In this document: piece after piece, positions 33,654-57,900 of the stretch | How positions within the stretch are numbered: the stretch's first letter is position 1 | How the letters are laid out: each line of letters starts with the position of its first letter | Assembly: GCA_949710005.1 (NCBI GenBank) | Contig: OX453272.1 | Location: 40,517,373 to 40,581,372, forward strand | DNA: 64,000 nt | Direction: 5' to 3' | Source of the DNA: Ricordea florida | Lineage: Eukaryota; Cnidaria; Anthozoa; Corallimorpharia; Ricordeidae | Position numbers and translations under genes: made by a program | Notes under the pieces: generated by a model | Database searches by the model: none | What the model was told of the DNA's origin: nothing | The model's input: the letters and a program-made list of their open reading frames with translations, nothing else

Positions 33654-33835
33654 TAACAAGAACGTGGACCCTGTATCGAGTTCTGAAACGTCAGTTTTCG
33701 TCTCTTCCTTGGCAGAGCTGTTGTCATATTCAGTCACCTCATCGTCAGCATCACAAACATCTGTCACCATCGGGCATCTCATCTAAATACGGAGCCCTGT
33801 TAGTGCCATACACGCGCGTGTACAGCATCATATTG

Positions 33836-34157
33836 GGGATGCATACTTTTTTCATTCTCGCGAACACTTTCTTACGTTTGGCGCGACTTTTTTTCACCGG
33901 CGCGACTTTTTTTTCTGGCGCGACTTTTTTTCTCTGGCGCGACTTTGTTTCTTTGGCGCGACTTCTTTTTCTTTGGCGCGACCTTTTTTCTTTGGCGCGA
34001 CTTTTTTTTCTTTGGCGCGACCTTTTTTCTCTGGCGCAACTTTTTTTTCTTTGGCGCGACCTTTTTTGTCTGGCGCTCATTTGTATACCGCGGGCTCAAA
34101 GTTCGAACACGTGTGGTTGAGCAAAGATGGCTGACTCGGCTGACAACGATCTAGAGA
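33836..34157 (+). repeat. Left terminal inverted repeat of the 12.5 kb transposon
   Basis: Terminal 45 bp, then ten units of GGCGCGAC followed by T-rich spacer (33880-34078), then a unique segment containing GTTCGAACACGTGTGG and an ATG at 34127. The same order is found inverted at the right end. Confidence 0.9.
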
Positions 34158-37100
34158 AGGCAAGTATTATAGTTTGCTGAATACTTAATGAAGGGGGAAG
34201 GCAGGCAGTCGTAGGTTTTCGCTTTTTTCTGTCTTTACCGTGCAAAAGATACGTGGAAAATCTCAAAACCATGCTAGGAAATTCAACACCTCAAAACCCA
34301 GAGCAGGCAGAACAATTTTGATTCTTACTTTACTCACCTGCTTTACTTTACGCCGATGGGCCGATAGCTATAGTGTAGCAATACTCATTATAAATACAGA
34401 TATAGTCATATATTAAGTTCAAAATTAAATATTAAGAAATCGTTATAAACGGTATATAACCTACAACAGGAATAAGATCTGTTTCAAACATAACAAGCTT
34501 TATTTACTTGAACACTAAAATAATTTTCATCTTATTGTGTTGTTGATCATTGCATTTTCAGGTTTGTAACTTTCTACGAGAAAGGGGAGTTGAAGACAGT
34601 ATTGTTCAGAAGTTTGAGGAGGAAAAGCTTAGCCTTTGGTTGTTTTATACCAAGCACCCCTCCAGGTTATTCTACCATTAACTAAACAACAACATATTTT
34701 ATTACTAACAGAAAACCATCGCTTGCATGGCCGCCTGCTTTTTCTTGTCAGCCTTCCACTTCAAAGTTAAGCACTTATCAATTGAAATCCCCACCCCCAT
34801 GGGCAGACAATGCTTTCAAATGCGATCAAAGGCCTCATATTCCCAACACATTCCCTGACATTGCCCTTTAGCACATGTCACATATTTATTTCATATCATA
34901 TTTAGCCACTCTGTTGGGGATAGTCATTTAACCATGCTCACCCCTCTTATTGAACAAATTCTCTCCGGCCTGACCAATCGATGAAAATCGATGATTGGAA
35001 TTCAATCGATAAATCAATATCAATCGATGATGGTTATTTAATTGATATTGATTGGCATTCGATGACCAATCAATTAAGTTACAAATGAAATTTCCTTAAT
35101 TACATTGATTGACAATGATTGCCATCAGGAGCCCATGACCAGGAGCGTTCCTCTGTGTTGGGTGGCGTCCCCAGCACAGTAGCAGATGTGGTTATTTATA
35201 GAACTCATATTTCCCGCGAAATCGGTTTCCATAGTTTCCGTTGCTTTAAGTGACCAACTCGCTTTCTCTTCCGATCTTTCGCTTTTCTTCGCATCTTTTG
35301 CCCTTTTATCACAAAAGCCAATCCTGAATTTACTCAAAATGTATCCCACAGTTCAAAGAAGGCTTAGATTAAACAATATGTAACTAAACACGATAAAAGT
35401 TGGAGGAATGTTAGAGCTACTTTTCAAGTCGTAAACGCAGCGGTACGGGCTTCTATTGAAACGTTTCACTGTTCAAGAAACTGATGAAGCGCTCAGGAGC
35501 AGAAGAATTAAAGAAAGAAGATTTATTTAAAGTTTCAAAGTTACATTTGCGGAATCCTCGCGACGATTCCATTTATTATGTTCACGAATTGGAAAGCGGT
35601 ACCGTCCCTAATACACCGAGTCCTTCTTCTCAGGCTAGCGAGCATACCCAAATGCAACCAACGCAGTCGATTTTAAGAAAGAAGCTTTGATAAAAGATCT
35701 TCCAGTGTTCTACAGGACTTTTCAAAAGAAAATGATCACTTTTTCGTTGGAAATTGGCGTCAGTGGCGAGAGAAAACTGGCTAGACTTCAGACCTCACTC
35801 CAGTCGACAACGGGAGTTATCGCCGTTTCTTACGGATAAGGCTTCTATTCCTCACTTTGCTTTGGCTGTGTTTCTTAGTGGTACGTGTTGCTACGAGAAG
35901 GAAATTGACCCATTTGAGCCAGTGCGTCTACTACTCGTACCTGATGGTAAATGGCGTCTTAAGTGCGAAGTGTTCAATTACAAAACGCTTTAGCAAGGAA
36001 CAGTTCGATGAATAAATTATATATGACGATGTAATAGAGTCGTTTGATAATTTTAGTATAACTCAGGGGAGATTTTGGAATGATTTCCGCACAAGTCCCT
36101 ACTTCATTATGCATGCTGTAGCCATACTGTTTCATTCTGCAATAACAAGAAATGTTTACATGAGAATTACCCTAAACAATTCATCTGCTGCATGCCTAAT
36201 GAAGTAGGGACCTCTAAGGAAATCTTGCCGAAATTTTTTATGTTTCAATTATGTTATTTATTCCTAGACATGGGATCTCCAGAGGGTTGTTGCTCATGGA
36301 TTCCTTTCCTTCTGTGAGTGGTTTTTCAGCAAAGTATTACCGAATGATCAATACTTTATAGGTCCACTATGCATGAACAGAGGTGCCCTGGAGTCTGTCT
36401 TCAGTGTTTTAAAGCACGCAAGTGGTGATAATTTGTCACCATTGAGCTATGGTCCTTCTTTCGGAAAGCTGATTTACAGGAAAGGGGGATTTGATTAAAA
36501 CATGTACTCTGAAAAGGGATATAGAGATGTGAAATTGAGCATAGATGGCATTGATGATACAGATTCTACTACAGTTGTTATTAGAACAAATATCTAGCCG
36601 GATTGTAAAGTTTCAATTCCCTGAGAGGATCTCTCAGTCAACACTTGGTGACAGGCAAGACATGAATGCCTGTACAATTATTTCAGTTGTGTTTGGTTGC
36701 TTTTGTGCATCCAAAGCACTGGACATTTCACTCCTGTGGCAATAGCTACCTCAGGCGTGGACTAACTGCCTTATAAATGCTATCTGTGGAGGAGACAAAT
36801 GGTATGATGACCTTTATGCTGATGCTGCAGTCAACCTTAGTGCTGCTGGTAATGAATGTTGTGTACAGTCTACTGATCCTGTATTTGACTTCACTAATGT
36901 TGATAATTCAATTATATTATAATTATGTTCAGGGATCTTCTGTTTCTGATAGATATGGAGTACTCATTGGATTTAACATTTGTTGGGCTCTATGTAAAGC
37001 AAAATGGGCTTTGTGCTCTTATAGACAGTCATCATGCTTTTGAAAAAGTTGGCACAGTTATATCCATATCAGACAGGTTCACTGCTCTGGTAGGTGACTA

Positions 37101-40100
37101 TACTGGAGTTTTGCAGGGACAACAACACACTTAAAGCAGAGGCACATTAACATGGATTGAATATATGTATAAAAAAGTGATTAGTTCTTCATTTTGTATT
37201 TCCAAGAAGTTGATAATACAGATTACATTCACTGAATCATAAAAAGAACATTTATTTATGTTTGGTCCCATAGAGTGACCTTTTAACTTAACCCTATCCA
37301 AGGCACAACATTTTCTTATAAGGATATCACTAGGTGTGCCTTGTATTGAAAGATTAAATGGTATAAAATATATTAGTGTTGATCCAAACACTTTGACAAC
37401 TTTAACCCTTAAAACACTAATGTTAAGATGGAACTTTTTCTTCATAGTATTGACAGTTTAACATTGGTGATCATTCCCTCATAACCATATATTGACATCA
37501 CCAGAAAAAATTGGATGCTAATCACTGTCATCAATTATTTTTACATACTTTCTTAAAAATGTGATACAGTTTAAGACTTGTTGATTGTCTTTACTAATGA
37601 GTGGAACACGTAAGTAAAAACCTGTTAACAAAAGCTCACTGGCAATAACAAGAATGATATTATTATCATAATGATAGTCTACAGTTATTTTCTTAGTAAA
37701 ATGAAGTGAAAAACAAGTCCAGTGTTAAAGGCACTGCACAGGGGAAAAAAAGACTATTGGAGCCACTCATGTTTATACACATGTTCCTATAGAAATAAAA
37801 TGACATGACACCCTTCCGAAAATTAACAGTGTATTCTCATTGAGTACAATGGCCCTTAATATACAAAATGTAAACAAAAACCTAAGGAGGCTAATTGAGA
37901 AAAATCTGCTGTACCTGTAAGATGAATTTCGGAATTCAAACCCATATAATAAATGAAACGTTAATATTCTCACTATTATAAGCAAAATCGTAAATACTGT
38001 ATACATGAAGAGAATGGGTGCACCAGTTCTTCATACCAAGTAACACCAAAGAATGAAACCTACTTCCCTGATGCCTGACGAGAAAGCAAGTCATAGTTTT
38101 TCAACTTTGGCCTTAACATTTAAACTGTATCAACCACTTTATTCTGGACCTTGAGATCCCTATTGGTTTTTGCGTTGAGAAATTAATTAATTCTAGTATT
38201 TGCAAGTTTAGAAAGCAACCCACTGAAAATTCTAGATACAAGACGCACATCACTTGGGATTGCAGATGCAACTGTTGACGCAACTATTGTTTTGAAATCC
38301 ATCTCCAATTTGTCATTATTTGAGACGCAACTTTGACAAATGTCAACAAATTTCGATCGAAACTTCTTAGGATTCCTGTCTGCGGCAAATTCGCGCACCT
38401 CAGCTCAAAAATTCTGCTCTTGTCGATGACTGGTCAAATGCTTTGCGAACGCTCGCCGTACAGGATACAACTTGATTCTCTCAATTTCCGTTAGAGTTTC
38501 ACGAACCTTCTGTTCCACTTTTCCCGCCTCCCCATAAGAAAAAAATCACGCCGCTAGTTCATCCATTCAGCGAGGTGACTGTTTTATTTCTTGCTGCGGA
38601 TCTTTTACTCTTACCGACTGGTAACTTTCGGAGATTTAGTGGAAGACTTCGTCGCTTTGGCCTGTTGATTCGCTTTTGGGCTTTCGTCGCTATCCTCGGA
38701 ACTTTCTTTCAGACAGGAAGACATAGAATCCTCAGAGGAAAACCCAAAACTATCGCTAGAACTATCCGAAAAATCTTCGCACGACCCGTCGCCATCATCC
38801 GCCATTATAAAAGTGACCGTAGAACTTGCATCAGAAATTAACATGTACGTAGCGCAATTTGATTGGTCGTTGTAATAATACCTTTGTTTTCTTTGCCGCG
38901 AAATAGAAGTTAAAAATAGCACCATCTGCTACTGTGCTGGGGCAAAGGGCTAATATGGGAGAGGAACGCTCCTGGTCATGGGCTCCTGTTGCCATCTATT
39001 AATTTATTATTGCTATCTGTAGTTTCCTTTTTCAATACCCCGTTTACAACTGTGATGCGAAGACTGTGGTATTTGGTTTTTCACTTGCTTTTACTTTTAG
39101 AGATAATAGCAGTCTACCTAGCTCAGCCACTTATTTCCATATTACTTTCCTGTTGCTGTTGATTGAAGTATATATTCATTTGGCTGGTTTAACTTACATC
39201 ATATTGTGCATCCACATTCCACATAACAGAACTTTTGCAGTTGTATTTCTCAAGTATCCTATACACAAATTTAAACCTTGCCCTTTTCTTAATAACGTTG
39301 TTTCTGCTGCATGACACACATAACATTAAAACACAAGGATGAATAAAAGAGGTATTGATTGTTTTAAGAGTCACTGAGTTGACGTAATAACACCCATATT
39401 GGATCAAATAAAAAGACTCTTAGAACGATGGACAAAATTGATTATAGTCATGACAATCAATGACAATCAATGAAAATCGATCATGTTAAAAGTAAAAAAA
39501 TTTTAAGTCATTGATTGGTCATTGATTTTTAATATCAATTAAATTAATTATCATTAATTGTTGGTTTCCTTGAATAGTCAGGCTGGGAATTCCTCAAGGC
39601 TAAAGAGGTTAAGGAACTGTATTGGTTATGTTTTATACAAAAACAGTTATCCCCTGAACTTTAAAGGAGTACATGCATCTGCATTGGAAAAGAGCATTAA
39701 TATACTAATTTAAATTAAATATTTAATTATTCTTTTTTTAGATGGATATTTCAGCAGTCCTAAATGCAAATGATGATGTCCTTAAAGACATGGGGCTCTC
39801 AACAGCAGGGGACAGATTAAGCCTTCGTGGTTTTTGTAGCACCGCGCAAGAGACACAACAGAACAAAGAAAAGGAATCCAAAAGACGAAGACTTCTTGAG
39901 GCATTCTTGTCTTCAAAGAAAGATAAGCCCAAGAAGCAGAAGCCTGTGACTTCTTCAGGCAACCAACAGCAAAAGAAGAAGAAAAAAGAGAAGTCTAAAC
40001 GAGTACAAGTTGGATGGAAACATTTCCGAGAGGAAGTTGAGGACTATGTTCTTGTACCACTGGCTAATGGAGGTGGTAGTAGGTATGCAACCATGCCGAT

Positions 40101-43100
40101 ATCAAGCAACAGAATAGATGTTATGAAAGTTTGCAAATCAATCTTTTTCCCTAATGGGGAGTCATATTTTGGGAAAGTAGAAGACATGCTATTTGCTATT
40201 GGAAATTTTCATAATGAGCAAATGGGTGTTACGCTGGAAGTAAATGGGAGAGAGGTTCCTTTCAATATTGGAAATTACATGGAGGCTTTTAAACTGAAAG
40301 ATGTAAGGCTTTACTTGTTGTCCAAGAACATGACAAGTAGCAGTGATGAAAGTGATGATGGCTTACCAGCTATGATAACCAGTCGTGACCCCACGTCTCC
40401 ATGTACAGCTGGTACTTGTACTGAGGACAGACGAGATGACAGTGAAGGCCTGATTGGTACCACCGAAGAAAGGGAATCACTGAAAAGAGAGCAAGACGTG
40501 GAGTATGAACTGTCACTAAAAGTAGACAGGCAAAAAAGAATTTCCCTTGAAAGGGCAAATGCCGAGGCTGAACATAAGAGGAGAGTTCAGGAGGCAAGGG
40601 CAGCAAGAGTTTTAGCAGAACCTGAAACAGATTTTGTCACTGTAAGGGTCCGACATCCAACAATGGGAGTATGCTCTCGACGGTTTCCATCAGACAGTCA
40701 AGTGGCAGCAGTCTATGACTGGGCTGGGTCTTTGACTCCTGAAATAGTGAATTTCACACTCTGTGACCCTTTAGGCACACCTCTGCTGCCAAGTGGAAAA
40801 CTGGAGGACAGATGTACCATAGTTATGGCCACTACTCCACATACACCATCACTGTCCGAGACAGATAAGGAAATTCAATTTATGGGATTTGGAGATGCTT
40901 GCAATAGTGGTAACACAACACTGCCAGACTGTGAGCTAAACAAAGAGGGAACAGAAATGGATACTGACATGTAAGTGACCTAATGTTCCACTTAAGTGCT
41001 GCAAATAAAGTAACAGTGAGTTATCACAAATTGTTGGATTGAAATTACTTAAATTTCCAACTAGGTACATTTTCAATATGCTTGGACATGATGCTTGGGC
41101 ACTTGAGATACCCAACTTTAACCATGAGCTAATAAATAAATGTCTGACCTACTTTCTAATATGTCTGTTACAAGTAAGGAACTTTGCCCCAAGAATGACC
41201 AACATGAAATTTCTCCTTACAACATCAATACTTAATCAAGAGGAAAGGTCATGAGAATAAATGGAATGATCACAAGAGGGAAATTGCTTTGATCTTTAAA
41301 CAAATTCTCCCAACACATACTATAAGGAAATGTATGGAGATCAGTGAGGAGACGTTGTATTTGGATATTGGGGCTTAAAGGGTGAAGAAAAACTTATTTG
41401 TAGCACTGAACGTACTAATGCACATGTTGTAGAGTACCTGGGACTTCAGGATGGCATTATCCTTACAGGCAAAAGTGCGAGAATTATTGATATTCAGGAC
41501 AAGCATTCAGCATTGAATTTACTTGAAAGTATTTAGCATTGTTGTACAACTCCTGAGACAAGGAAATGTACCTTGGAAATCTGTTCTATAAAGTCAATAT
41601 ACCTAACAATTTGACTGCTTTGTATTTTTTCATCCTGCTGACTGGCTACTCTGACTGGCATCCCTTTCAATTAAATTTTTTACTTAATGTATTAGGCACA
41701 ATCATTATAAAACATTTCCTGTGGATTAATAAGTGGCAAGAGGACCTCAAAGAAACCACCAGGCTTATGCCGTGGGAGGGGGCTTGTTTACAGTTGAAAT
41801 AGCAGATACTTGACTTCATAACAGTTGTAATGGTATTCCAACTTTACTTATATTTTACTAGGTCGATGACTCCAATGCAGTTAGACAACTACTACGCTGC
41901 CATTCTCGTAGAGCCACCTGGAACTAGTATGGAGAATTATGTATCTGACAGTGAAGGTGACATTTCCACCAGTGAAACTCACAATGATCATGACCCCCCA
42001 ACTGTTACTCCTTGTCCGATGAAACCAGCACCTGAGGTACTGAACGAACTAGCAGCCCAGATAGATGATGGTTCCCTTTCCAAATTCAACATTGCCCGTA
42101 ATTTCATGTGGGAAGGAGCAAAAAGAGCAGTGTCCCGTAAAGCATTCTCGCCAGCTAACAAGGTATCTGTTAAGTTCACTGATGATAGTGGGGCAAGTGA
42201 AGGCGCCATCGACTGGGGTGGCCCCATGAGAGAGTTCTTTACCCTGATACTGCAACACATCCATGGTTCTCAACTTCTGTGTGGTCCAGAGAACAGCAGA
42301 TTCCTGTCGTACAATGTTAAGTGTTTAGAAGATAATGACTACTTTGTTGCAAGACTCATCATTGCTATGTCACTCGTGCATGGAGGAATTGCACCACATT
42401 TTCTATCCCCTGTCATGTTCGAAGCTCTTCTCAGTGACCAACCTTCGACAGTGCCATTGCAAGATGTCTATGATTATGAGCTGAAGTCTTCTCTTCAATT
42501 TCTGCATGACTCGGACACGGTAGACAAAGCAAAGAGATGCACAGTGGAAGGCAACTTGTCAACTGTACTTGACCTGGCTGGGACATTGGCAATGCCGATA
42601 GAAACACTGAACGATGCCAAGAAAATGGCTGCCGCAACTTGACAGTGGTTTGTTCTTGGGCGATGTAAACCAGCCCTTGAAAGCTTTCGAAATGGTCTCT
42701 CAGCCCTTGGTGTGTTGGAAGCAGTCCAGACGTATCCTGATAGTTACAGGCCATTGTTTTGTGATCTGCCTGAGAAGCTGACAGCAGAGCGAATGGAGGA
42801 AGTATGCAGGCCTAACACAAGTCCTGTTGGTTCTTCAAAGGGGTTGACTGAGAGTCTTGTTTTGTCCAGATGGAGCGATTATCTGCAGGACATAGAAGAT
42901 GCAGAAGATTCTGACATCACCTTGAGTGACATTTTGTTCTTCACCACTGGCTGCAAAGTATTACCACAACGTGCAATGCCTGTCACCGTCGAGTTTTTGC
43001 ATGAACCTGGAACAGAGGGGTTGTCAAGGTTTCCCACAGCAAATACATGTTCCAACATCCTCCGCCTTCCAGTAATCCATGGTAATTATGAAAGCTTCAA

Positions 43101-43152
43101 AGCTGATATGACCTTTGCATTCCTCAATTCACGGGGTTTTGGTACTGCTTGA
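34127..43152 (+). CDS. Transposon-borne SAM-UBX-HECT E3 ubiquitin ligase (4 exons, damaged)
   Basis: Predicted HECT-type E3 ubiquitin ligase resembling the multi-copy G2E3-like proteins of fish and cnidarians. Exons: 34127-34159, 34562-34627, 39742-40970, 41862-43152. Exons 1-3 together build a SAM-like domain (MADSADNDLEK, VCNFLRERGVEDSIVQKF, then DDVLKDMGLSTAGDRLSLRG). Exon 3 adds a Lys-rich linker, an unnamed domain, a coiled coil and a UBX-like fold (FVTVRVRHPTMGVCSRRFPS). Exon 4 is the HECT domain with FTDDSGASEGAIDWGGPMRE and the catalytic cysteine (TANTCSNILRLP, codon 43048-43050). Intron 1 has a GC donor. Damage: a TGA at 42640-42642 splits the HECT domain, and no GT donor follows exon 2. 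Intron 2 holds a nested transposon. Confidence 0.85.
34975..35118. repeat. ATCGAT/ATTGATT-rich tract
   Basis: Dense, imperfect repeats of AATCGAT, CAATCAAT and GATTGAT. The nested transposon is inserted at its right edge. Similar tracts are at 39440-39560 and 52850-53340. Confidence 0.5.
36080..36232. mobile_element. MITE family A, copy 2 (inside nested transposon)
   Basis: Palindromic element with ends TTCCGCACAAGTCCCTACTTC and the inverse TGAAGTAGGGACCTC...GGAAATC. It shares ends and the ATGCATGCTGTAG motif with copies at 21893, 46573 and 50345. Confidence 0.7.
36288..36497 (+). pseudogene. P-element/THAP9-like transposase C-terminal fragment
   Basis: An open frame of about 70 codons containing GFLSFCEWFF and then NRGALESVFSVLKHASGDN, ending before TGA... 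This resembles the N-x-ALE-x-xFS...GG.N block of P-type transposases, where the glutamate is catalytic. The upstream RNase H part is not recognised. Assignment by motif shape only. Confidence 0.45.
36600..37133 (+). pseudogene. Possible papain-like cysteine protease fragment, frame-broken
   Basis: Separate frames carry FPERISQSTLGDRQDMNACT (candidate nucleophile Cys in NACT) and, about 330 bp on, VKQNGLCALIDSHHAFEKVG (candidate Asp and His in DSH). Spacing and motifs resemble C-type peptidases with a DSH dyad. Several frameshifts lie between. Function is an inference from two short motifs. Confidence 0.35.
38180..38802 (-). pseudogene. Nested element minus-strand protein remnant
   Basis: ATG at 38802 opens a Ser/Asp-rich acidic stretch (MADDGDGSCEDFSDSSSDSF). 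Downstream frames (LTEIERIKLYPVRRAFAKHL, then EVREFAADRNPKKFRSKF to 38183) read like one decayed protein with an in-frame stop near 38404. No family recognised. Confidence 0.4.
39440..39560. repeat. ATCGAT/ATTGATT-rich tract
   Basis: Repeats of GACAATCAATG and related words, resembling the tract at 34975-35118. Both lie in intron 2 of the E3 ligase gene on either side of the nested element. Confidence 0.45.
39742..40970 (+). CDS. E3 ligase exon 3: SAM end, linker, coiled coil, UBX
   Basis: Open for 409 codons after the acceptor ttttttag. Residues 1-35 complete the SAM-like domain, 50-95 are Lys-rich, about 90-195 form an unnamed conserved-looking domain, and about 245-295 are charged coiled coil (REQDVEYELSLKVDRQKR). 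About 300-370 is the UBX-like fold, ending PSGKLEDRCTIVMAT. Donor AT|gtaagt, phase 2. Confidence 0.88.
41862..43152 (+). pseudogene. E3 ligase exon 4: HECT domain with in-frame TGA
   Basis: Acceptor attttactag, phase 2 entry matching exon 3. The N-lobe runs from about 42080 (NIARNFMWEGAKRAVSRKAF). A TGA at 42640-42642 interrupts AAAT*QWFVLG, most simply from TGG. The frame then stays open through the C-lobe to 43152, with the active-site cysteine intact at 43048. A single substitution separates this copy from an intact reading frame, which points to recent decay. Confidence 0.85.
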
Positions 43153-44493
43153 AAAGTAGTGTGCAACATTGCAGCCCGTTTCACTTTGGAACAATTGGAT
43201 TTGGAATGGAGAATCTGTGTACATTAGGTCATTCGTTTTCTCTGAAAGTTGAACAATGGAAATGCATGTGCAATTATATTTTTTTGGCCTGAATTAAAAC
43301 TGTGCGTTCAATTTTCATTTTTCAATTTCTCAGGCGGAAAAAATTAAAATCAAAGTTGGCTTTTTATTTTTCATTAACTAATTTTCAGAAAAAAGTAAAT
43401 ATTGAACACAGATTTATTTTTCAGATTCTGAAAAAAAAATGGAACCTGCATTTTCAATTTTTTTTCTTAGAAAAAATCTCAATATACATACATTCTGTAG
43501 CTTCTCTTGTTTCCATGTTGAGAAGGAACCAAGCACAGCGAAACCATTGCACCTGCCTAAAATAATTCTGTCAGCTGCTGATTAACTGGCTGGAACGTCA
43601 CCATCTTTTTGTTGAAGGCCTGCAAAGCTTATCCAGGCAAAGCTTTATCCAGGCTTATTCAGGCTTATCCATCCAAGCATTGCTGTAAAAGGTTACCGTT
43701 TATTTTTAATGTGAATGCATTCAGGGGACATTTACATTGATGATACACCAAGTCTCACGGTCATTTTGACATCAGTCATATAGCCGTTGATGTTGACATT
43801 TTTAAATGCCACTTACTTCTCAGTGGCATATATTATAATAACCATTTGTTACTGTTACTGTTTGTTAACCCTCAAAATGTCCAATAGTGACTTTTTAAAG
43901 ATTTTACCCTGGCTAACGCCAGACTATTTTACTGATCAAAGAGGCATAAAGCGTTAGAGTTACTGTTTATGATGAATGTGAATGCATTCAGTGCTTACAC
44001 ATTAACATTCTATTGATGATACTCAACATTTCGTGTTCATCAGCATCAGTCAGTTTGTTATTTAATATTTGTTTACCCAGTTTAATTGAACATCGAACAT
44101 ATAAAACCCTTCCCAATGTAATTTCCCATTGTACCTGAAGAAGGCTGGTTTGGCCAGCCAAAATATAGTACACAAATTTAAAACCTTTCTACGTTGTATC
44201 GGTCTCTGCTTTTTTATAGGCTCAACAGTGAATGAACTGGGGTGGAGAAGTAGGGAGCTAGTGATGAACTGATAATATGTGAATGAATACATTCCTTACA
44301 TTCACACCAGTGAGACTGCTGACATGGTTATTTCATATCCCACGCATACACACCCCCAAAACAAAGATTGCCTGGGTCAGTTCTTTCATTTCATGGGACT
44401 GGGAGCACCACAGGGCTGTCTTCTTGGCTTCGCAAGGTTTTCAGTTCAGAATATTTAACACTTTTCAGGTAGACTATTCTCATAAACGTGCAA
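43153..44493. other. Convergent spacer of the 12.5 kb transposon
   Basis: AT-rich and no coding signal recognised. Two diverged copies of a GTGAATGCATTCAG-led unit lie at about 43712-43865 and 43974-44090, and T/A-rich TTTTTCA-type sequence fills 43270-43500. Confidence 0.55.
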
Positions 44494-45668
44494 CTACAGT
44501 AATTTCTCTATCTCGTTCACAAGAGTCAAATAAAGATTCCGTGCCTCATTAGCATTTTCTGGCATTCTAAGACCTTCTTCTGTCATGATTAGCTCGGCAA
44601 GTTCAATAAATTCAGGTGATGAATCCATAGGAAGGTCGTCACAACACATGTCTCTTGCAACATCTATCTCGTCAATGTCAACATCATGCCTGCAATCTAC
44701 GGCTCCTGTCATTTCAGGATGATGGTACAAGAGACAAGGTCGACCATGGGGAGAACTGTTGTTCTTTGTTGATGGTCGAATCCGATGCAGGTTCCACAGT
44801 CGAGCCACTCTTTGGAGTTCCTCACGGATAAGTGTCATGTAGCAAAACAGTAGACATTCCACATGCACAGCATTGGCATCACAGTATAGTCCCCTGTCCC
44901 TCAAATCTTTAAAGTGAGTAATCCACCAATCAGAGGCACCTCTTCGCAGTTGCCCCCACCATGCCTCTATTCTCTGATTAGCAACTGATCTTCCGTAAAG
45001 AAAGCTTTTCTCCCCTGACAAACTGTCTCCTGCTTCATGTCGTAGATAACGTTGAATAGCAGCAATTCTCACGTTTTCTGTTCCCATGTCTCCACGAATC
45101 ACACAGGCGGTGCCCCCAACATTTTGCACACAGTCAATAAAATAGCTAGCTACAACACCGGGATGATTATTCGTACGCCCAACTTCTAGCCACATTATTT
45201 GTCGCGAATATCCGTCAATCCAACCGTGTATACAAAACCCAACCAAGGTTTCAGTTTGTCATATCCGTCCAGGTGCCAAATAAAATTTGGGCCTTTTGCA
45301 TGATATTGTCGCCTTTGGAGTCTGTGCCTTGCGCGCCTTTGGACCCCTTCAGGGTCCATTATTCTTAGTGCATTCCGAACAAATTCCTTGCTAACAGACA
45401 ATTTATGGTCAACTACTAATCTCTGCCACATAGTTCTGTAGCCGACAATGCTTCCACTTCCTTTCAGCTCCCCTTCTATGGCGTCTGCAATCTCATCAAG
45501 GCTGCTGAAGCGTCGTCCAAGATTTTTCTTCTCTAAGATTCTTTTAAGCTGTCGTAGACTTAGGCGTATTTCATTATTTAAAAAGAGGCAATCAATGATT
45601 TCTTTGTAATTGAAGCCCATATGGAAATATTCCTCAATTAAATGATTACGATGATCGTTATCCACCAT
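44494..45668 (-). pseudogene. DDE integrase-like transposase with one frameshift
   Basis: The mobilising enzyme expected for the 12.5 kb element. The ATG at 45668 opens a 158-codon frame with an N-terminal helix-turn-helix-like region (GFNYKEIIDCLFLNN...LRQLKRIL) and the first catalytic aspartate in IWHLDGYDKLKP (near 45270). Just after this the frame shifts by a single-base indel around 45240, and the core resumes as VGFCIHGWIDGYSRQ, then the second aspartate in VIRGDMGTENV and the glutamate in NQRIEAWWGQLRRG. The C-terminal part ends at 44494. Type is integrase core (rve-like). Converges with the E3 ligase gene. Confidence 0.82.
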
Positions 45669-45971
45669 GTTGACTTACTTGAGTGATCGGTGATTTAGGA
45701 CAGCGGTTACTCCCAGAAGGTTTAAAAGACCTTGGTTAAGAAAAGAATTTTTAATAAGACTGATATGTATAAAGAGTATTGCATGCTTTTGCATTCTATA
45801 CTTGAAATTTGTTATTGGCATAAAATAAAGTAACAATAAAACTTGTTCTGCTGGTGTGGTTTTTACACTATAAACACAGAAAGATAAAAGTGAAAACATA
45901 TAAAACTCCGTGCCCTACCTCTATTCATTTACGAATGTGGCAGTATTCAGCACTAACTATAATACATCGTT

Positions 45972-46290
45972 GTCAACCGAGTCAGCCATCTTTGCTCAAC
46001 CACACGTGTTCGAACTTTGAGCCCGCAATAAATCTAGTAGCGGTATATAAATGAGCGCCAGAGAAAAAAGTCGCGCAGGAGAGAAAAAAGTCGCGCCAGA
46101 GAAAAAAGGTCGCGCCAAAGAAAAAGTCGCGCCAGAGAAAAAAAGTCGCGGCAAAGAAAAAAGTCGCGCCAGAGAAAAAAAAGTCGCGTCAGAGAAAAAA
46201 AGTCGCGCCAGAAAAAAAAGTCGCGCCGGTGAAAAAAAGTCGCGCCAAACGTAAGAAAGTGTTCGCGAGAATGAAAAAAGTATGCATCCC
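45972..46290 (-). repeat. Right terminal inverted repeat of the 12.5 kb transposon
   Basis: Inverse complement of the left end: ten AGTCGCGCC-type units at about 46065-46247 and the terminal segment ending TATGCATCCC. It has a 15-bp insertion near 46030 relative to the left end. On the minus strand it also carries the ATGGCTGACTCGG sequence seen in the left end. Confidence 0.9.
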
Positions 46291-46572
46291 TACTTGCCGT
46301 ACTTGCATCTGTCTGAGATATGCAGATGCCTCTGGTAGATAGCCTCCGGCATAATTCCATGCTGAGGAACACAATTTTAACATTCATGACACAGAGGGAT
46401 TTGATCCGTGCGAATCTGATCGCAACTCCGGTCCAAACAATACCCCCTTATTTGCATTTCAACCATTACCACAGCTGATGTGCATAGTTATTAAGAGTCT
46501 ACCTTCAAATAAAGCTCCCGGTTGTGATAAAGTTAACGCCAAAATCCTGAAAGACAGCGCACCAGTTATCGC

Positions 46573-47727: not shown

Positions 47728-48284
47728 GGTATATAAACAAACTGCTCGCAAAATTCATGTCTCGTATGAAAAATGTTGACAAGCTAAACTGTACTGAAAG
47801 AGTGTTTTGTTTGAACATGCCACCTTCACTTTATGGAGCAAAAACTATCTTGCGGTATCATGAGCGCATTCTGTAGCATACATGCCGCCGTTAAAAGCTT
47901 TTAAAGTACAGATTGTGTGAAAAATCTTTTCACCACTGGACACTGTACATGATTGCTCAAAATCATTACCTGGATAGCACTTGAACTATATCAGCGAAAA
48001 GGCAACGGGAACTGGTCAGCCGTCAAGGATGGTTTCATTACCTATATATATGCTCTTGTTTGGATCGCCTACTCGAACCTACCCTCGAGGCTTCTTTTCA
48101 TGTTGTAAACAAGAACAAACACTAGAGAATGAAAATCGTTCTACTTACTCGTTTTGGCAGTTGTTTCATTGCGTCGTACGTGTTCACCGGGACGACGCAG
48201 GCATAGTTACCATTACAAGATCTCCTCTTTACATTGAGGTGCGAAATTCTGTTTCTGCACAGTGACTGCGGGGCGTAGCTAGTG

Positions 48285-49060
48285 AGGGGGTTGGTCCTGC
48301 ATGGGGTACCCGTGTGGGGTACCCGTACTCCTGTATGGGGTACCCGTGTGGGGTACCCGTAATCCTGCATGGGGTACCCGTGTGGGGTACCCGTAATCCT
48401 GTATGGGGTACCCGTGAGAGGTACTCATAATCCTGTATGTGGTACCCTGGTACCCGTACTCCTGTATGTGGTACCCTTGAGGGGTACCCGTAATCCTGTA
48501 TGTGGTACAGGTGAGGGGTACCCGTAATCCTGTATGTGGTACCCGTGTGGGGTACCCGTAATCCTGTATGGGGTCCCCGTGTGGGGTACCCGTAATCCTG
48601 CATGGGGTACCCGTGTGGGGTACCCGTAATCCTGTATGGGGTACCCGTGAGAGGTACTTATAATCCTGTATGTGGTACCCTGGTACCCGTAATACTGCAT
48701 GGGGTACCCGTGAGGGGTACCCGTAATCCTGCATGGGGTACCCGAGGAGGGTACTCGCAATCCTGTATGTGGTACCCGTGAGGGGTACCCGTAATCCTGC
48801 ATGTGGTACCTGTGAGGGGTACTCGTAATCCTGTATGGGGTACCCGTGAGGGGTACTCGTAATCCTGTATGTGGTACCCGTAATCCTGTATGGGGTACTC
48901 GTAATCCTGTATGTGGTACCCGTAATCCTGTATGTGGTACTCGTAATCCTGTATGTGGTACCCGTAATCCTGTATGGGGTACCCGTAAGGGTTACCCGTA
49001 ATCCTGCATGGGGTACCCGTCAGGGGTACCCGTAATCCTGTATGGGGTACCCGTAATCCC
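48285..49060. repeat. GGTACCC/AATCCTGTATG minisatellite
   Basis: About 775 bp of tandem units combining GGGGTACCCGT and AATCCTGTATG with lengths of about 22 or 34 bp. Every unit carries a GGTACC site. All three minus frames stay open because of the repeat, giving artefactual proteins of YGYPTRVPHTG repeats. Confidence 0.88.
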
Positions 49061-49319
49061 TCCTTTTTGAACAAATTTCTCTCAAGCTACTTTAACAGCA
49101 GTAGTGGCTGATGAGCAATATGACTAGAATAGAGTTTTTTATGTTTCGAGAAATTTGACCAATCTATGCAGTAATTTGACAGGCTTTCTCATCCCCCATC
49201 GCGCACAGCTCTTCGGAAAAAGATATCACAGCTTGGATGTCAACGTAACAATCTGATAAGTACCTCGGGTGTAGCACAGTGTGGCCCCCTGATCCTACCT
49301 AAGCCCTTGGTACACCACT

Positions 49320-51242: not shown

Positions 51243-51947
51243 TCAAAATGCGTGCCTCGGGGCCTGCATGAAAATTATGATCGTAGAAAAGCACAGAATC
51301 AACAAAAACATCCGCAATAAGAACTTGTCAACGATCACTGCAATTAGAACCCACTCTTGTTTCATTAACTCAGCGTTTTCTTTGTCTTGAACAGCCTTCG
51401 CCATCACCCTAACGTCTTGCGAGATGGAGGTCTGGGTATCAAGAAGAGCTTTGTTCATGTGGCAGTTCTCAAAGTTTTTACCATTCGGCAGAGAATCATA
51501 TGAGGCAGTATTCTTAAGGTTGTATCTTGATGGGGCTCGACAAGACATGGGAGACAAGTTGTTTGTTAACTGTAAACTGTTGCAACAATCTTTATTTTGA
51601 CCTCTGTGTAAAGACAGTATGTCCAATCGGGGACGGACACCTTCGTGCACCGTTGAATGAGCACTGTTCTCAAGCTGTTGCTGCAAGCTTGAAGCCTTTG
51701 ATTTGTTTGGGGTTTTCTTGCCTGAAAAAGTATCACCTTCCTTGTTGAAATTTTCATCCATCTGGGGGTCATTCTTTATGAACTTCTTAGGGCTCACGCC
51801 TTGGAGTATCCTATTCACAGGTACCTTGACAAGGCGAGCCATCCATCCCAATACCACGTGACGGACCCAGTTTGGAACAGGCGTATGGGAAGGATCGTTG
51901 AAGTAACATCTCAACACAACACAAGTTGCAATCAAAGCCATGGCCAC
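51243..51947 (-). CDS. Gene 2 exon 8: TM3 end, long cytoplasmic loop, TM4, stop
   Basis: 705 nt. Starts [16 protein letters not shown], then a low-complexity cytoplasmic loop of about 150 residues rich in Ser, Asn and Lys, then TM4 and the tail PRHAF. The loop is the region that usually carries trafficking and phosphorylation sites, but I recognise no specific motif. Confidence 0.9.
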   Translation of the reverse strand: MAMALIATCVVLRCYFNDPSHTPVPNWVRHVVLGWMARLVKVPVNRILQGVSPKKFIKNDPQMDENFNKEGDTFSGKKTPNKSKASSLQQQLENSAHSTVHEGVRPRLDILSLHRGQNKDCCNSLQLTNNLSPMSCRAPSRYNLKNTASYDSLPNGKNFENCHMNKALLDTQTSISQDVRVMAKAVQDKENAELMKQEWVLIAVIVDKFLLRMFLLILCFSTIIIFMQAPRHAF

Positions 51948-54900: not shown

Positions 54901-57900
54901 CAGAAATTAATGAAAGGAGAATTCGATTTCCAGTGCTGATCAGACGTTTTACTTCAAATTACAAACATACATTTCCGGTGTTTTAACGATTTGTTAAAAT
55001 AAAAAAGGAAATCAACTGTTGTACCTCGTGTGCCACAATATTTGAAACTGTATGAACAAGTAATTGACCGTGTTACCGTTTAAAACAGGTCAAGACCGGA
55101 TAGAAAAAGTCCCGTTGGGACTTCGCAAAGGGTGACCGCGACCACTTAATGGAGGTGACCCCTTAATGGAGGTCAAAATTATAATGCATTAAGGGAAGTT
55201 ATTTTCGGGACTTTGAAAACTGACCGCTTAATAGAGGGTGACCGCTTAATATGGTGCCGCTTAATACAGGTTCCACTGTAGTTAGGGTGCTTTACCACAG
55301 AATTATAGAAATATACGTCAGATTTCATCACATATCAAATACCACGCTATTTATCAAAACAATCCCCTGTGCGTCTTATTTTGAATTCTTTTCTCGGTGT
55401 TTTAAAGGTGATGAAGCACGTTATCTCGGGTTTGATACATATCACGAGTACTGTACAGGCCCGCAAATGATCCCGGCCCGCAAATGATCCCAGGACCGCA
55501 AATGATCCCCAAATTGGACCGCAAATGATCCCAGGACCGGAAATGATTATTGGAAGTGATAGCGCAGAAAAATAGATGGCTTGGACTTGGAAAGTTCCTG
55601 TAACTATACCTTTTGGGGGTGTCTCGCGTCTAAACGATATAGCGCAGTCGGAATAAATTGTAAATAGCTAAAACCCTATATCAAATTAAAGCTTATTGAT
55701 CTGGCTTTCAATCTATAAAAACCATTTTGTAGTAGAATGAAATGTAAATCTTTTAGGAACCTGGAAACACGAGCGCCTAAGTCGCCTTCAGTGAAGGCTA
55801 CAAATCAAAGTGAGCAAATTTAGTATTTGATTTGTTCTTTTCATGCGCATGAAATCCTTGCCTTTCCCGCTCTCATTTGTCTTGCATGTTTTTATTACTC
55901 GAAAGATGTACCGACTAAAACACTCAGTTTTGGACTTTTGTTATTGTGGGGTTATTTATTACAAAAATCCGTTTTTTTTTGTTGGACTGTTAAAACTTTA
56001 TTTCTCGTTTAAAATCAGTGCATATTGAGGCGCTATAATAACACTAGTAAGAAAAAGATATGTTACGGTTTTATTGTAATCCCTGACGTTGGATAGAATT
56101 TAGGTTCAAATCGTTAAATACTGTTTGATATTATGTAATTTTGCTCATTTTGCTTGCGTTATCTTTAATAACTGTTGTGTTTTAAGGAAAGGACCAATAG
56201 AAATTACCGGCGGCAGGTGGGGGGGGGGGGGGGGGTTAAACAATTTTTGGTGCGTGGATTTTTGCACGCATATATTTTAGGCCCAACAGCTGGTAGGAAT
56301 TTTCTTAGACAAGTCTCCCTTGCAGGAATTTCTTTTGGGGAAAAGTCACTCCCACCGCTCTCCGGATATTTCTAATGGTCCGCCTTAAAGAAAATAAAAT
56401 GGATTATGTCAATTTCAATCCACTCTCCAAATTCGTGAGTCCATACTTTTTCATCTTATATGGAGAGGCCATCATTTCCGGTCCTGTGATCATTTGCGGT
56501 CCAGGGATCATTTGCGGGCCGGGATCATTTGCGGGCCTGTACAGTACCGACCTAAATGGATTGTTTACTCACCTGATATCAAGAAGCAAGGTGCTATCAT
56601 GTTAAAGAAGTAAAACATGTGTCGTCTTCTTATGTTTAACCTGTAGGTGATGTCAGGGTATGGCTCAGGGCAGCACTGATACAACACCTCATGACGCTTA
56701 CACGGCAAGCTGACAAGCTCCCATTCTCCGTTTTTGATGAATTTTTTGATATCCCCCTCACATTTCCCAGGGTGCTTCTCTGAAAGGAGGTCAAGCCGAA
56801 AGCCGTCATATGTCCAGGAACCGAACTTCATAATACACTCCTGACAAAAAAAGAAAAACCTTTTAATTTGTAATTGGTTGGATGTGTAGTAGCGCTGTAA
56901 GTAAAGAGAACAGGGAAAACAAAATGGCCTGTGCGACTCTTGAAAGTTCAGTCGCGAGAGTAAACGGCACATCAGTCGCGAGAGAAACGGTATTTCAGTT
57001 CAGGAGGCCATGAATTCGATTCTCACTCAAGTCAAACATATTTTGATAGCCTATGGTTCTCATTATTCCTAGTATTAAAGCTAACTCTACAATACAGGGT
57101 TCGTTTGTTTTGTTTTTTTTATTTGCGTTCATGCTTTTAGAGGCACGCGGCATGACATTACATGTATCGTTAACTTCCCTCTCTTGGTTTTGTATGAGAT
57201 AAATCTATATATCATTTTTGCACTGCAGTTTGAAACAAAGTTCAAATTACTATTGACCTGTTCCCAACGTACTCGTTTGGTTACTAAGCCAGAACCAGCA
57301 GAGCGTCGCATCTGGCAGTGGTTAAAAGACTTTATAATATAGCTACGTTCTTACGCGCGCTCTGATTGGTCAAAAACCTAAGTTTTATTAGAGTTTATAA
57401 TATAGCTACGTTATCACGCGCGCTCTGATTGGTCAAAAACCTATGTTTTATCAGAGTATAAAACATAGAAAAAGCGTGTTTTATTGTTTTTCGCCACATT
57501 ACCTCTACTCGACAATTCTCTAAGAGATGGCGAAAAACATTTTCTTTGAAGAAATTCATGATGAAGTTCTCTGCGAAGCAGCAGAAAGTTTTGAAGCTGA
57601 GAATAATAAAACAAATAAAAAAGAAGAAGAAGAAGCAAAACAGTCGAGAAGTTGGTATTACATGGCGTCGGTTTGTCGATCTGTGTGCTTTGTTGTTTCT
57701 ACTCGCGACGTGTAAAATCTATCATCATAAAGTGAATAAAGAAGCCTAAGCCGTGTATTACATTGTGATAAAACACGACGGGCATTTGAGAACACGAGTG
57801 AAATGTAGAAAACACGAGCCGCAGGCGAGTGTTTTCTACATTGCTACTAATCTTGTAATCTGATTGGCTAATTTGCCGTTGTCGATGAAAGTCTAGACAT

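Follow-up and report, generated by a model that had tools for sequence, protein, structure and literature searches.

Genes and ends of the element in the window

The window, i.e., the whole stretch of 64,000 nucleotides of Ricordea florida DNA that was analysed, harbored two genes between inverted ends, in the order terminal repeat with a 19-20 bp array, ligase gene, transposase gene facing the ligase, and terminal repeat (Table 1). The inverted ends matched over 115 nt at 98% complementarity and over an inner 89 nt at 84%. Comparison with the ends of sister copies placed the left terminus at 33788. The right end was missing its final ~48 bp, positions 46291-46301 may be a degenerate terminus, and target duplication was absent at the window copy because of this loss. 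A preliminary description had placed a 12.5 kb transposon at 33836..46290; the transposon was retained, its left edge was shifted to 33788, and its length proved to be inflated by a nested element. A 22-mer at the 33836 boundary occurred twice in the window and not at all in shuffles, and its exact matches in the genome were those two places only.

Table 1. Features of the transposon copy, in positions of the window
Feature	Position	Strand	Remarks
Left terminal inverted repeat	33788..34153	+	Terminus TACGGAGCCCTG; sister copies end alike
Left subterminal array	33877..34079	+	10 units of 19-20 bp, GGCGCGACTTTTTTTCT-like
Ligase exon 1	34127..34159	+	11 codons; in terminal repeat; GC-type donor next; model by inspection
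Ligase exon 2	34562..34627	+	First part of SAM; donor lost in window copy
Nested element	35127..38988		In intron 2 of ligase gene; inverted ends; 8-bp duplications at 35119-35126 and 38989-38996
Ligase exon 3	39742..40970	+	Rest of SAM; adapter at ~39979-40341; UBX-like region at ~40462-40770
Ligase exon 4	41862..43152	+	HECT domain; stop at 42640-42642; predicted catalytic cysteine codon at 43048-43050
Transposase gene	44494..45668	-	Weak HTH-like N-terminus, rva_4 integrase core, D-D-E triad by alignment; frameshift near 45240
Right terminal inverted repeat	45963..46290	-	Without outermost ~48 bp
Right subterminal array	46055..46255	-	10 units

The nested element (3.86 kb) explained the extra length of the window copy, and its insertion site was read straight across in four of the five other copies of the family (all but the copy on C3). 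No Pfam family was matched by the two pieces of its transposase-like reading; this element may be P-element-like. The window copy was dead, with an in-frame stop in the ligase at 42640, a frameshift in the transposase near 45240 and the loss of the exon-2 splice donor, which was present in the four other copies examined. Elsewhere in the window, neurotransmitter-gated ion channel domains (Neur_chan_memb, 7.7e-12; Neur_chan_LBD, 5.1e-17) were found on the minus strand at 51246-51944 and 56568-56996, marking the host side as an animal-type gene region. A long tandem repeat with three open minus-strand frames occupied positions 48232-49086.

The transposase displayed an integrase core (Pfam rva_4, 4.7e-26), in which D136, D195 and E236 were invariant across seven aligned rows, D195 and E236 being separated by 40 residues, and this D-D-E triad was kept in intact transposase copies. 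Among NCBIfam models, IS3 (25.5 bits, E 7e-6) stayed far under its cut-off of 160 and came ahead of IS481 (13.4). Together with the alignment of the terminal repeats and the HECT match (8.4e-9), the rva_4 match bore out the initial observation of inverted ends around an integrase-core transposase and a HECT gene.

The ligase gene model was predicted from sequence alone. In this model, the start and nearly all of exon 1 fall within the left repeat, in agreement with the first exon having been assigned to the terminal repeat. The HECT domain of the window copy scored 35.9 bits over a Pfam cut-off of 23.9, and intact copies reached 53.4 bits. When exons 1-3 were joined by hand, with the letters of exon 2 taken from a sister copy, SAM_2 scored 26.7 bits against a cut-off of 20.5 (Pfam). 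The UBX-like region was seen in the window family only; it scored 14.7 bits against a Pfam cut-off of 21, and matched FAF1 chains in the PDB at 8e-5. From the SAM-UBX-HECT ligase first described, HECT and SAM were thus above their Pfam cut-offs and UBX remained weak. The adapter domain had no PDB match at E values up to 1, and no Pfam or NCBIfam model reached its cut-off there. The catalytic cysteine column of the C-lobe was invariant in all eight HECT rows, and the profile of these rows retrieved AREL1, ITCH, RSP5 and HUWE1 from the PDB, over both lobes. The predicted second gene is a SAM domain, an adapter domain and a HECT domain with the catalytic cysteine kept, i.e., a putative ligase.

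Sister copies and short derivatives of the window family

Genome search with both proteins retrieved five further close copies (C2:11.86M, C3:19.16M, C7:10.78M, C1:1.68M and C15:10.99M), with transposase identities to the window of 96-98% and ligase identities of 88-96%, some of the ligases being in pieces. Transposase and ligase were both present, and convergent, in all six copies of the window family, which sustains the view that the ligase belongs to the element and is no captured bystander. The ends of the sister copies gave the terminus TACGGAGCCCTGTTAGTGCCAT; TACGG..CCGTA was found at both ends of four copies and at one end in the window and C15 copies. All four copies with both ends were flanked by perfect 6-bp target duplications (GAGATT, GATTTT, AATATC and GCATTG), while the C15:10.99M copy was without its ligase-side end, hence no duplication was visible. 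The C1, C3 and C7 copies were 99.5-99.7% alike over the ligase region (window copy ~96% to them), indicating that the family moved recently. A 393-aa transposase frame was kept in three copies; of three copies checked for the 449-aa HECT exon, two had retained it.

With at most two mismatches allowed, the terminal pattern was found at 55 places in the genome (reversed control, 0). By position, these ends paired into 20 facing pairs and 15 single ends. Four facing pairs were long (8.6-12.0 kb) and corresponded to the four complete copies, and 16 were short (0.46-2.6 kb), too small for both genes; one short pair lay within the C2 copy and was flanked by a CTTTAC duplication. Terminal repeats without the HECT gene, which the preliminary description had considered contrary to its proposal, literally occurred in these 16 short pairs; yet no family copy was found with transposase but without ligase, and for this reason the short pairs, judged from length and ends, were read as non-autonomous derivatives.

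Pairing of transposases with a second gene across the genome

Genome hit lists were lower bounds, and loci were merged from hits. The earlier proposal that many 'host' HECT genes are transposon genes was supported in this genome by a position-blind Pfam HECT search (at least 102 hits), in which at least 19 of at least 76 merged loci lay within 10 kb of one of at least 142 merged transposase loci, all 19 as convergent pairs and in diverged families; random placement gave a mean of 0.44 such neighbours and a maximum of 4 (n=1000). This pairing test was free of the choices made in sampling flank stretches (see below). The window family and its nearest copies accounted for about six of the pairs, and one near-identical family for seven more, so that there are fewer independent families than pairs.

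A broader search combining the Pfam HECT model, the window ligase exon and the ligases of two other families (L070 and L080) yielded at least 193 HECT-like loci. These were found within 10 kb of at least 77 of the at least 142 transposase loci (74 convergent) and within 3 kb of at least 71 (70 convergent), compared with a mean of 1.14 and a maximum of 5 HECT-like neighbours under random placement (n=300). Of the 77 linked loci, 20 were retrieved with the window exon or the Pfam model, while L070 added 24 and L080 another 33. The L070 and L080 queries originate from beside transposases, and the 57 loci reached only through them chiefly indicate pairing among copies of these two families. L080-type genes scored 14.1 bits against the Pfam HECT cut-off of 23.9, the L080 type alone matched no PDB chain, and these genes are termed HECT-like because of an alignment with the cysteine column. 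Paired copies do not represent separate insertion events, since several members of a family, and of a tandem cluster, were each counted. The cluster, at C15:16.83-17.54 Mb (L021-L031), contained eleven paired elements of one kind in ~0.7 Mb, ten of them with the same flank, and is a segmental array around one old insertion, i.e., one event multiplied in place. Among the matches listed with these queries, 56 of 142 transposase loci had neither HECT nor kinase within 10 kb. One HECT in a 499-aa open frame (L040, C12:19956572-19957723), 45% identical to the window ligase, had no transposase nearby among the matches.

Sixteen flank stretches were sampled, seven of them picked for a Pfam HECT match (L067-L071, L073, L074) and L072 for a HECT reading seen in L010. 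The other eight held HECT-like genes in L080, L081 and L082, a kinase in L078, and neither in L075, L076, L077 and L079; at the L079 locus, HECT-like matches lay just past the stretch sampled. A second HECT family, on C6, had its own inverted ends (25/25, TACGGTGGCCCAC) and a 6-bp duplication (GAAAAA). In the C9, C13 and C15-cluster families, no terminus was located on the ligase side within the 3-4 kb of flank examined. Short-repeat arrays just inside the ends were also observed in other families (L091/L092 and L101/L102), with unrelated unit sequences, and these units may be putative transposase binding sites. No relatives from outside the genome were found in viral contigs or phages.

One transposase family was adjoined by a 768-aa frame with a protein kinase (Pkinase-type, 1.6e-49) in place of the ligase. 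Nine of 12 merged kinase loci were paired with a transposase, all convergent, among the matches listed, and the C2 copy of the kinase family had inverted ends (TACGAAAGCCGAGGAGGG) and a 6-bp duplication (ATTTTT). The N-terminal part of the kinase gene resembled exon 3 of the window ligase (30% over 119 aa, 3e-12) and another HECT family (33% over 125 aa, 2e-19). Searching the genome with the adapter domain gave at least 37 places, including all six window-family copies; 28 of the 37 lay within 15 kb of a transposase, all convergent, among the matches listed, and 31 had a HECT-like (20) or kinase (11) domain downstream on the same strand within 8 kb. These alignments suggest that the second gene combines an adapter with a catalytic end that can be exchanged. 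At the N-terminus, L080-type genes matched a zinc ribbon weakly and carried another domain, without recognisable adapter; a common origin of this domain with the adapter was considered and not supported.

Some adapter genes stood apart from transposases. Adapter and HECT occurred in one 821-aa open frame at C11:4645697-4647841, possibly a domesticated gene, and adapter-kinase genes at C5:18047041-18049113 and C16:21386894-21389087; none of the three had a transposase within 15 kb among the matches listed.

Across eight families, identities ranged from 23 to 69% for transposases, five of which were partial (85-246 aa), and from 12 to 47% for HECT domains, HECT identity being below transposase identity in 26 of 28 family pairs. 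Co-divergence of HECT and transposase was not supported over these eight families (Mantel r 0.21; 8455 of 40320 permutations as high). HECTs from C9, C6, C10 and C1 were 40-47% alike, while their transposases fell into two groups. Because of this mismatch of identities, and with five of the eight transposases partial, the catalytic part is read as probably exchanged or recaptured. Second-gene dN/dS was 0.22 between C9 and the C15 cluster, and 0.31-0.59 between the window family and a broken relative (three pieces).

Proposed role of the second gene and comparison with known systems

The element in the window is probably a decayed cut-and-paste transposon of the IS3EU type, equipped with two genes; the protein of the second gene would be an accessory factor. 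The transposase would bind the terminal repeats and move the element, the N-terminal adapter part of the second protein would find a target, and its exchangeable catalytic end would mark that target with ubiquitin or phosphate. The most likely target, at a little under an even chance, would be a host silencing or repair factor, followed in likelihood by the element's own transposase complex. A host target is favoured because the slot changes enzyme and ligases diverge faster than transposases, and because fungal IS3EU elements, in the accessible part of their description, carry a TET/JBP dioxygenase, in their author's view an aid in escaping silencing, and an alpha-kinase (PMC12730594).

Alternatively, the second protein may act on the element. 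Its SAM domain would assemble it onto the complex of transposase and DNA; ubiquitin or phosphate, together with a p97-type unfoldase recruited by UBX, would then dismantle that complex or limit the transposase. The removal of Mu transposase by ClpX is a comparable case. The UBX-like region with its FAF1 match, the convergent and closely spaced genes and the recent near-identical copies would agree with such an action on the element; we regard it as the main alternative, though a tentative one, given that UBX was under the Pfam cut-off and confined to the window family, and that the history of the second gene differs from that of the transposase. The mismatch of HECT and transposase histories, the many broken copies and the short non-autonomous copies without either gene would also be expected if ligase and kinase genes were passengers captured from the host and briefly kept, with no role for the element. 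Such passengers are unlikely to recur across many families at one position and in one orientation, to keep the catalytic cysteine at 12-47% identity, to show dN/dS below 1, and to comprise two different enzymes behind a common adapter. A host ligase gene flanked by repeats by chance, with no transposon, had in its favour only the degenerate right end of the window copy, and was ruled out by the target duplications of the sister copies, in line with six dispersed copies of which three were 99.5-99.7% identical.

With the second protein as an accessory factor, the elements would, as the findings suggest, bring their own protein-modifying enzymes. Whether this extends to animal IS3EU at large, i.e., a dedicated second gene joining a targeting adapter (SAM and a new domain) to an interchangeable HECT or kinase effector that controls host defences or transposition, with many multi-copy HECT genes in such genomes being transposon genes, is in our judgement evenly balanced. 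If true, a ligase or kinase of their own would offer a direct handle on how elements cope with host silencing or control their transposase, and an adapter that two unrelated enzymes share offers a clue to a target common to both. Counts of HECT genes in genomes such as that of Ricordea florida include transposon genes and should be taken with caution; Marin 2010 (PMC2837046) gave 19-20 HECT genes for early animals, the string 'transpos' being absent from the accessible text. The window HECT shares with AREL1, ITCH, RSP5 and HUWE1 the catalytic cysteine and a profile match that spans both lobes, and differs from known HECT ligases in being transposon-borne, very diverged and preceded by SAM and an unmatched domain.

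IS3EU/GingerRoot elements are described with TA..TA termini, 6-bp target duplications and an IS3-like D-D-E transposase, no HHCC finger being noted in the accessible part of the source (PMC10045372). The window family is like them in termini, 6-bp duplications and IS3-like D-D-E, and unlike them in its ubiquitin ligase second gene, which those accessible descriptions do not name. Ginger1 and Ginger2 likewise have an integrase-like transposase, and are set apart from IS3EU/GingerRoot in that part of the source. A comparison with both groups had been proposed from the outset; set against the descriptions available in part, the TACGG..CCGTA ends, the 6-bp duplications and the D-D-E transposase of the window family fit membership in IS3EU. 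The preliminary description knew of no family with the transposase-HECT pair: the element type proved to be a known one, whereas no publication pairing IS3EU with HECT was found in a search of the literature outside Repbase and subscription papers. IS3EU is a known superfamily, and HECT as its second gene is probably new within the literature searched, on the basis of one genome. As far as the accessible text goes, fungal IS3EU families have TAYGG..CCRTA termini and 6-bp duplications, and next to the transposase they carry genes for a TET/JBP dioxygenase and an alpha-kinase, the extra enzymes including a kinase in opposite orientation; the author thinks that escape from silencing was helped by the dioxygenase (PMC12730594). 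The elements of this genome resemble them in termini, 6-bp duplications and extra enzymes including a kinase, and differ in that the extras there are a dioxygenase and an alpha-kinase, and here a HECT domain or a Pkinase-type kinase behind SAM/adapter (PMC12730594, accessible part).
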